A stretch of 60,143 bases of DNA, taken from NCBI GenBank assembly GCA_030693235.1, contig JAUYBE010000016.1, positions 99,917 through 160,059 on the forward strand, given 5' to 3'. Below are positions 58,754-60,143 of this stretch, piece by piece. The DNA is from a bacterium. GTDB taxonomy: Bacteria; Patescibacteriota; Minisyncoccia; UBA6257; UBA9933. The notes under the pieces are model-generated. The model was not told where the DNA came from and did not search any database. It saw only the letters and a list, made by a program, of their open reading frames with translations. Numbering within the stretch: the stretch's first letter is position 1; every line of letters starts with the position of its first letter. Both the position numbers and the translations under genes were made by a program.

Positions 58754-58916
58754 ATTAATTATTTTGATGGCGTTATAAATCGCGTTAATCTCCGCCGCGC
58801 TTAACGCCCGGTTACCCATATTGATTCTGTTTCAATCGTGTCAACCTGAATTTTACTTCGTGGCGTTGTAAATGGCGGCGATTTCGGCAGCTGATAATGT
58901 TCCGATTGTAGATGCG
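58754..58916 (-). pseudogene. Two remnant copies of a LamG-protein C-terminus
   Basis: NRALSAAEINAIYNAIK and IGTLSAAEIAAIYNATK*, compared with YNRALSAAEISAIYNATQ* ending the intact CDS at 59204. Confidence 0.65.
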
Positions 58917-58938
58917 AAATTTTTCTATTAAAATAATA

Positions 58939-59019
58939 AAGCGGTGGGGGTGACGCAGTGTTGGATTCGGCTTACCATCTAGAATCCACGGGGTGCAATT
59001 CCCCGCACCTCCACCGCTT
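58939..59019 (+). ncRNA. Candidate tRNA/tmRNA-TLD-like three-way-junction RNA element
   Basis: 14-bp closing stem (58939-58952/59006-59019, one G-U), TGGATTC/GAATCCA hairpin, T-arm-like CGGGG-TGCAATT-CCCCG. Confidence 0.5.
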
Positions 59020-59041
59020 AAAAGTTATCCACAGACATGAC

Positions 59042-59136
59042 TTGACAGAAAAATTCTGGCTGTTATTCTTTAATCAAGATGGTGAGCCGAATGCACTGCG
59101 TTTGGATTCGCGAAAGACCCCGCAAGGGGTTTTTTG
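59042..59136 (+). ncRNA. Candidate short RNA with own promoter and terminator, complementary to 58953-58980
   Basis: TTGACA-16-TATTCT, then gatggtgagccgaatgcactgcgt, then ACCCCgcaaGGGGTTTTTTG. Confidence 0.45.
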
Positions 59137-59203
59137 TTTTATTTTGCCTGTCCGGTAGTGAAACTGCGATAAAATAAAATTGCGAAGCAATTCACAGTTT
59201 CTA

Positions 59204-60143
59204 CTACTGGGTGGCATTGTAAATCGCGCTAATTTCCGCCGCGCTCAACGCCCGATTGTAGATGCGGACTTCGTCGATGATGCCGTTGAAAAAAGAGGTT
59301 GGCGTGCCTGGTGCGCCTCTTGCGCTAATTCTCAGTCCCTGCGCTGAGCCTTGTAACCCGCCACTCAAAGCAAAACTTTCAACGAGTATGCTATCAATAT
59401 AATGTTTCTCTACGTTAGCAGCATAGGTTATTGTTAGGTGTTTCCATTGGTTAAGAGGGACTACTATTGAACCTCTCCAAGCCCATGGGTTACTATCTTT
59501 TATTGCCGCTATAAGCGCACCAGTCGTTTTCTGTATAGCAAATTCATACGAATTTTCTTTATTAACTATCATACCTTCATTGGTTGGATAGGCGTAGGTC
59601 GTTGTATAAATCCACGCCTCAAGCGTAATCTCACCCGTGATATTCAAACTCGCCGCATTCCCAGCATCAACATAATCATCCACGCCGTCAAAACTCAACG
59701 CCCCGCCCACTTTTCCGGTTGTCCAAGTAGGGCCATTAGTAAGAGTCCCATTATTCCCCCTCCCGCTGGCGTCATAAGCATTAGTCCCGCTGGTTTCATT
59801 AAATTTCCAATAACCGACCAGAGAAGGGTTGCGGGAAACAGGCAGAAGAGTAAGATTGGTGCCGATTTCCAAGAGTTCGGGATAAGAACCGTTATCTTTG
59901 GAGGTTTTATCCATAGAACCGCCCATTTTGTATCTTTCCGATTCAAATAAAGCAGTTAGTTTATAGGAACCGCCCATTACATAGGTATAATAATTTCCAG
60001 TAGAAGTGGTATTAATCGGGTCAATGGGAAGGATTGCTAAGTTTGAGCCAAAGGAGATAGAGGTGAAAGGGACGGGTATCCAGCCGGTGGAATCAACTTT
60101 CCGATAATTGGCGGAATTGGAACAGCGATATTCCCAGCCGGTG
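59204..60143 (-). CDS. LamG/concanavalin-like domain surface protein, truncated at window edge
   Basis: LPIDPINTTSTGNYYTYVMGGSYKLTALFES...GALSFDGVDDYVDAGNAASLNITGEITLEAWIYT...FNGIIDEVRIYNRALSAAEISAIYNATQ; frame stays open to 60143. Confidence 0.85.
   Translation of the reverse strand, partial: TGWEYRCSNSANYRKVDSTGWIPVPFTSISFGSNLAILPIDPINTTSTGNYYTYVMGGSYKLTALFESERYKMGGSMDKTSKDNGSYPELLEIGTNLTLLPVSRNPSLVGYWKFNETSGTNAYDASGRGNNGTLTNGPTWTTGKVGGALSFDGVDDYVDAGNAASLNITGEITLEAWIYTTTYAYPTNEGMIVNKENSYEFAIQKTTGALIAAIKDSNPWAWRGSIVVPLNQWKHLTITYAANVEKHYIDSILVESFALSGGLQGSAQGLRISARGAPGTPTSFFNGIIDEVRIYNRALSAAEISAIYNATQ

Follow-up and report, generated by a model that had tools for sequence, protein, structure and literature searches.

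A tRNA-like RNA with alanine identity elements and a predicted antisense partner recurs across Patescibacteria

Positions 58939-59019 of the window, the whole stretch of 60,143 nucleotides analysed here, make up the first half of a unit of two RNAs extending to about 59137. The unit combines a covarying tRNA-like fold and a conserved G3-U70 pair with an antisense partner specific for its own RNA, and in some copies it occupies an in-frame antisense position within protein genes. In total, 95 copies of the first RNA (RNA1) were collected across Patescibacteria, and the pair that it forms with the second RNA (RNA2) seems to represent a type of RNA element not yet described, recurrent in many tiny-genome bacteria; no description of the family was found in the open-licence literature, from which the wider literature may differ. 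The explanation that we favour, still tentatively, is that RNA1 is a tRNA mimic recognised by alanyl-tRNA synthetase (AlaRS) and restrained by the antisense RNA2, the two making up a selfish RNA–RNA element akin to a toxin–antitoxin system.

When folded with RNAfold, 58939-59019 gives a three-way junction of -42 kcal/mol, against -25.6 +/- 3.0 kcal/mol for shuffled versions (z -5.4), none of the 200 shuffles being equally stable. The fold described in the first-pass annotation, with a 14-bp closing stem, a 7-bp hairpin and a T-arm hairpin, was reproduced exactly, including the stem running across the CCA positions. Two of its details had to be revised: the 9-nt linker placed where a D-arm would be contains a 2-bp D-stem that covaries, as well as a GG/AG dinucleotide belonging to the elbow, and where a normal anticodon arm was thought to be missing there is a central anticodon-like arm. 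RNA1 is built of a 7-bp acceptor, the 2-bp D-stem, the central arm with its 8-nt loop and a T-arm, the mRNA-like domain being absent:

58929..58934, + strand: probable RNA1 -10 element (TAAAAT), 11 nt upstream of G1, from the sequence
58939..59019, + strand: RNA1, a tRNA-like RNA with extended acceptor stem, from the fold, the tmRNA match and alignment covariation
58946..58952, + strand: acceptor 5' strand GGGGGTG, G3 paired to U70; 7/7 pairs in 33/33 aligned copies
58953..58961, + strand: mini D-arm, 2-bp stem 58953-54/58960-61; alignment columns 16-17/25-26 covary
58957-58958, + strand: analogues of A18 and G19; alignment columns 21/62 covary
58962..58988, + strand: central (anticodon-like) arm with 8-nt loop 58971-58978, from alignment and covariation
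58989..59005, + strand: T-arm CGGGG-TGCAATT-CCCCG, from RNAfold and covariation
59006..59013, + strand: acceptor 3' strand CACCTCC and A73, then CCG, not CCA, from the tmRNA-model match and alignment

In an alignment of 33 RNA1 copies, 26 of the 28 pairs are changed on both sides, which together with the lack of a gathering-level Rfam match at 58939-59019 agrees with the initial suggestion of a mimic or new structured RNA. Paired cells amount to 93.4%, versus 69.9% after shuffling, and the covariation score is 0.673, versus 0.219 for shuffled alignments and at most 0.178 when partners are slid by 1-3 columns. Furthermore, mutual information exposed two features that had not been presupposed, namely the 2-bp D-stem and an elbow contact joining position 18 of the D-loop to position 55 of the T-loop. 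The 18-55 contact is G-U in 20 of these copies, A-G in 12 and G-C in 1, and the 19-56 contact, which covaries as well, is G-C in 31 and A-U in 1. Since such tertiary covariation is otherwise hard to explain, RNA1 seems to adopt an L-shaped tRNA-like fold, and the swap from G18-U55 to A18-G55 represents a natural experiment in tRNA architecture. Both elbow types were seen at what is apparently one locus with homologous neighbour genes in two genomes of one genus (L120 in G331 and L128 in G309), where the RNA1 types are very different, G18-U55 versus A18-G55, which suggests replacement or fast turnover.

With regard to transcription, the best -10 matches cluster 11-12 nt upstream of G1 over the 95 copies, and 27 of them score at least 6, versus about 4 expected. 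The structure of RNA1, as well as its pairing with RNA2 described below, is strongly supported by sequence comparison. That the locus is a hairpin formed by chance, or the relic of a tRNA or tmRNA gene, as the single copy in the source genome and the missing ARAGORN call might suggest, is already contradicted by covariation across 33 copies, both two-sided and tertiary, and by the conserved promoter and antisense partner, and this reading carries next to no weight.

The inner seven pairs had been taken for an acceptor stem with G3-U70, and this was confirmed: position 3:70 is G-U in 84 of the 95 copies, while pairs 4-7 vary freely. G1-C72, G2-C71 and A73 are each found in 87 copies, and a few copies retain the fold without G3-U70. 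A73, G2-C71 and G3-U70 serve as alanine identity elements in bacteria (PMC9976931). Because RNA1 carries this identity set along with G1-C72, AlaRS probably recognises it. ACCA is encoded in 34 of the 95 copies, usually with little extra stem, and charging of this class is plausible from its sequence. It is absent at 58939-59019, and in copies of this second type the stem is extended over positions 73-76, with covariation. As CCA is unencoded and the stem covers 73-76, charging of the 58939-59019 class would require trimming and CCA addition, and is uncertain.

Neither tRNA finders nor Rfam gave a cloverleaf with an anticodon; ARAGORN made no call at 58939-59019 and called almost none of the family copies. 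Under relaxed settings, the best Rfam match was tmRNA (RF00023; 28.0 bits, E 3e-9 in 1 kb), in keeping with the tmRNA tRNA-like-domain geometry first noticed at this locus. The alignment spans the first to the last model position, with most of the 374 positions and the whole mRNA-like domain deleted, and its score lies below the tmRNA gathering score of 47, which one relative, L196, just reaches with 47.1 bits. Apart from L196, relatives yielded only sub-threshold tmRNA or mascRNA-type matches, and assignment to a known Rfam family was rejected. RNA1 thus presents a tRNA-like domain with G3-U70, and neither an mRNA-like domain with a tag frame nor pseudoknots, the central loop having 8 nt in most copies. 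The source genome (610 kb, 18 contigs) contains a separate full-length tmRNA (103.7 bits with Infernal; L009:1501-1862, G000:C14), so RNA1 at 58939-59019 is not the tmRNA of this genome. ARAGORN missed that tmRNA, whose aligned 3' end reads CCACAC, not CCACCA. A permuted or two-piece tmRNA was also rejected: the strands follow one another in the usual order, and RNA2, by pairing with the D-arm, would destroy the tRNA-like domain, not complete it.

These results bear on a host-serving role, in which RNA1 would be a tmRNA relative reduced to the tRNA-like domain, alanine-charged and perhaps SmpB-bound, acting on stalled ribosomes at a level adjusted by RNA2. The tmRNA model being the best Rfam relative, the tmRNA-like geometry of the D-region, G3-U70 and the copies encoding ACCA are all compatible with it, but the source genome and nearly all relatives already possess a full tmRNA, and it would be odd for a housekeeping RNA to be patchily distributed, to have several divergent copies in one genome or to lie inside genes. 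We regard this role as unlikely.

Folding of 58925-59145 revealed that 59077-59101 is complementary to 58953-58980. Because this complementarity is accompanied by a promoter-like site and a terminator-like hairpin, a second short RNA is probably encoded downstream on the same strand:

59025..59033, + strand: TTATCCACA, exact DnaA-box consensus, between RNA1 and the RNA2 promoter
59042..59069, + strand: RNA2 promoter TTGACA-16-TATTCT, from sequence and relatives
59075..59137, + strand: RNA2, a predicted antisense RNA of about 60 nt, from complementarity, duplex energies and joint fold
59077..59101, + strand: RNA2 segment complementary to RNA1 58953-58980, from folding
59110..59137, + strand: hairpin-like RNA2 terminator, from folding

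In RNA1, the sequence complementary to RNA2 covers the D-arm together with the 5' strand and loop of the central arm. A partner is present in 86 of the 95 copies, in tandem in 66 and convergent (opposite strand, downstream) in 20, while nine copies have none within 350 nt; promoter signals were found for both RNAs. That one pairing is preserved in two layouts speaks for selection acting on the RNA–RNA contact. Cognate duplexes have a mean energy of -39.0 kcal/mol versus -22.3 kcal/mol for non-cognate ones, the cognate partner ranking first for most of the 33 RNA1s, and in the 18 genomes with at least two copies it is the best in 53 of 55 cases (-40.2 vs -21.9 kcal/mol). The joint RNA1–RNA2 fold is favoured by ~12 kcal/mol on average, not in every copy. 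In L136, where one genome holds two copies, the acceptor and T-arms are near-identical and the central arms differ, with RNA2 changed to match. Pairing between the third segment of RNA2 and the central 3' strand, once freed, was discarded for its doubtful geometry, and this segment may simply fold RNA2 itself. The DnaA box is exact in 8 of the 66 tandem copies, against an expectation of 0.02, and its distance from RNA1 is constant; judging from this it could tie RNA2 transcription to DnaA.

BLAST returned relatives from the same order. Searching the fetched regions with a covariance model built on the entire unit (R1) yielded 34 matches, and a model of RNA1 alone (R2), in a search covering Patescibacteria, gave further copies phylum-wide. 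The 95 copies are what remained after removal of ordinary tRNAs, which make up most R2 matches of 88-89 nt and also led to exclusion of L224, L225 and L243 (called tRNA by ARAGORN); the model E-values are rough, the genomes are largely metagenome assemblies and related copies are non-independent events. The source genome has a single RNA1 copy, with an R2 score of 90 bits; its next match scores 31 bits, and some tRNAs of other genomes reach about 48 bits. One subtype matches public Jorgensen-, Lipton-, Brenner- and Spechtbacteria records, all of them Patescibacteria. One copy (L060, identical to L132) looks degenerate and is devoid of a partner, and L129 holds RNA2 only. Exact searches of IMG/VR with three patterns returned nothing, BLAST against plasmids gave no match, and one phage matched over 28 nt in the RNA2 terminator region only; a phage or plasmid origin was rejected on these grounds. 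In L065, L066, L067, L069, L071, L081 and L086, another conserved motif of ~60 nt (GAGTGCGAG...GCGATGATATCGATTAAGG...) stands directly before the matched terminator and, from its sequence, appears to be a further small RNA or leader in these bacteria.

The neighbourhood of dnaA/yidC, in which homologs had been expected, is not a constant of the family: other copies occupy unrelated places, so the element is independent of these genes. Comparison of neighbour genes found no protein family common to most loci, so a link to a protein gene was rejected, and most of the largest neighbour-protein cluster derives from the element's own antisense peptide. RNA1 could alternatively be dedicated to donating alanine to, or regulating, a process other than translation, for instance cell-wall or lipid alanylation, under control of RNA2. 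This would suit an alanine identity that comes without a conserved anticodon, but no linked gene for such a process recurs among the neighbours and both the orthogonal copies and the in-gene positions would be left unexplained, which makes this role improbable.

In at least 14 cases the element is embedded in an open reading frame, invariably antisense to the gene; this is partly circular, because such copies were recognised through the frame spanning the element. The eight examined in detail share one common, stop-free frame, and 24 of 25 other copies tested carry stops in it. The hosts identified include:

L142: mnmA
L143 and L147: fmt
L135, L146 and L199 (by Pfam) and L148 (by motif): inteins
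L123: LamG protein

In the mnmA, fmt and intein hosts, the host protein is recognisable on both sides of the element. Relatives of fmt have ~8-15 residues where L147 has ~70-75, and they are too divergent at the site to reveal an exact empty site. In the four intein hosts, the element fills the loop between two intein splicing blocks, a place where homing endonucleases are usually situated. Such copies appear dual-coded, with two structured RNAs on one strand and a segment of host protein on the other. The C-terminal remnant of a LamG gene (58861-58928 of the window) stops at the left edge of the element, so the copy at 58939 may lie within what was once a LamG gene, now decayed; the antisense frame of this copy carries five stops. 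LamG 3'-end remnants are repeated at 58768-58813, 58861-58906 and 59212-59257, beside an intact LamG gene (59204-60143).

The recurrent ends of these inserts are the RNA1 -10 element and the RNA2 terminator, a boundary that, together with the multiple orthogonal pairs and the likeness to the in-frame Rickettsia palindromic elements (PMC10969869), would suit a mobile non-autonomous element whose movement or copy number is limited by RNA2, RNA1 being a non-toxic substrate of movement, for example by reverse transcription. No transposition footprint, terminal repeats or target duplications were identified and no shared enzyme gene lies near the copies, and such an element would have no need for an alanine identity pair; it too has a low probability in our estimation.

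Under the favoured reading of a mimic restrained by its antisense RNA, we infer transcription, charging, toxicity and mobility as follows. Two small RNAs would be made from the locus, RNA2 from its own sigma-70-type promoter, and pairing of RNA2 with its own RNA1 would open the tRNA-like fold. Unless neutralised by RNA2, free RNA1 would tie up AlaRS, EF-Tu or the ribosome and so hamper translation, and loss of RNA2 would then harm the cell, which is the weakest step of the proposal. A selfish RNA–RNA unit would explain the pair-specific co-evolution, the several mutually orthogonal copies per genome and the persistence in genes. The full version of this proposal, which we advance with more reserve than its core, is a protein-free selfish element of Patescibacteria in which a tRNA-Ala/tmRNA mimic poisons translation, its own antisense RNA neutralises it and the unit has spread phylum-wide; it could persist even in essential genes, since the strand facing the two RNAs would stay free of stops and be translated as part of the host protein.

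Among known systems, RNA1 resembles the tRNA-like domain of tmRNA (RF00023) in its acceptor with G3-U70 and A73, its GG D-region, its T-arm and the long arm that replaces the anticodon arm. It differs in lacking the mRNA-like domain, tag and pseudoknots, in its covarying 2-bp D-stem and closed 8-nt central loop, in its antisense partner, in its sub-threshold score at 58939-59019 and in a CCA that is often absent. With tRNA-Ala it shares the identity elements A73, G2-C71 and G3-U70, but it has a 2-bp D-stem, no variable loop and no conserved anticodon. The tRNA-like-domain-only mitochondrial tmRNAs of jakobids and oomycetes likewise comprise a tRNA-like domain without a tag sequence; in contrast to RNA1, they are organelle-encoded, housekeeping and single-copy, and we know of no antisense partner for them. 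The oomycete tmRNAs have been noted before (PMC4131195).

Rickettsia palindromic elements are units of 150-230 bp that lie in-frame within unrelated genes (PMC10969869), as do the in-gene copies described here. Unlike them, one strand of the present element encodes a tRNA-like and an antisense RNA with promoters, and insertion is always antisense to the host gene. To our knowledge, Rickettsia palindromic elements do not carry such RNAs. Type VIII toxin–antitoxin pairs are RNA–RNA systems whose toxins can work by blocking tRNAs (PMC12737573), CreT for instance sequestering a tRNA (PMC8501985). Like SdsR/RyeA and CreTA, RNA1 and RNA2 would consist of an RNA toxin and an RNA antitoxin, the pairing between them being found by sequence and energy only; unlike them, RNA1 is itself a tRNA mimic, its toxicity is a proposal and no CRISPR link was seen. 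What the family would contribute is an RNA that unites a tRNA fold and alanine identity with an antisense inhibitor of its own, in mostly uncultured bacteria, and, if RNA1 is toxic, a very small RNA-only addiction element with a new way of interfering with translation.
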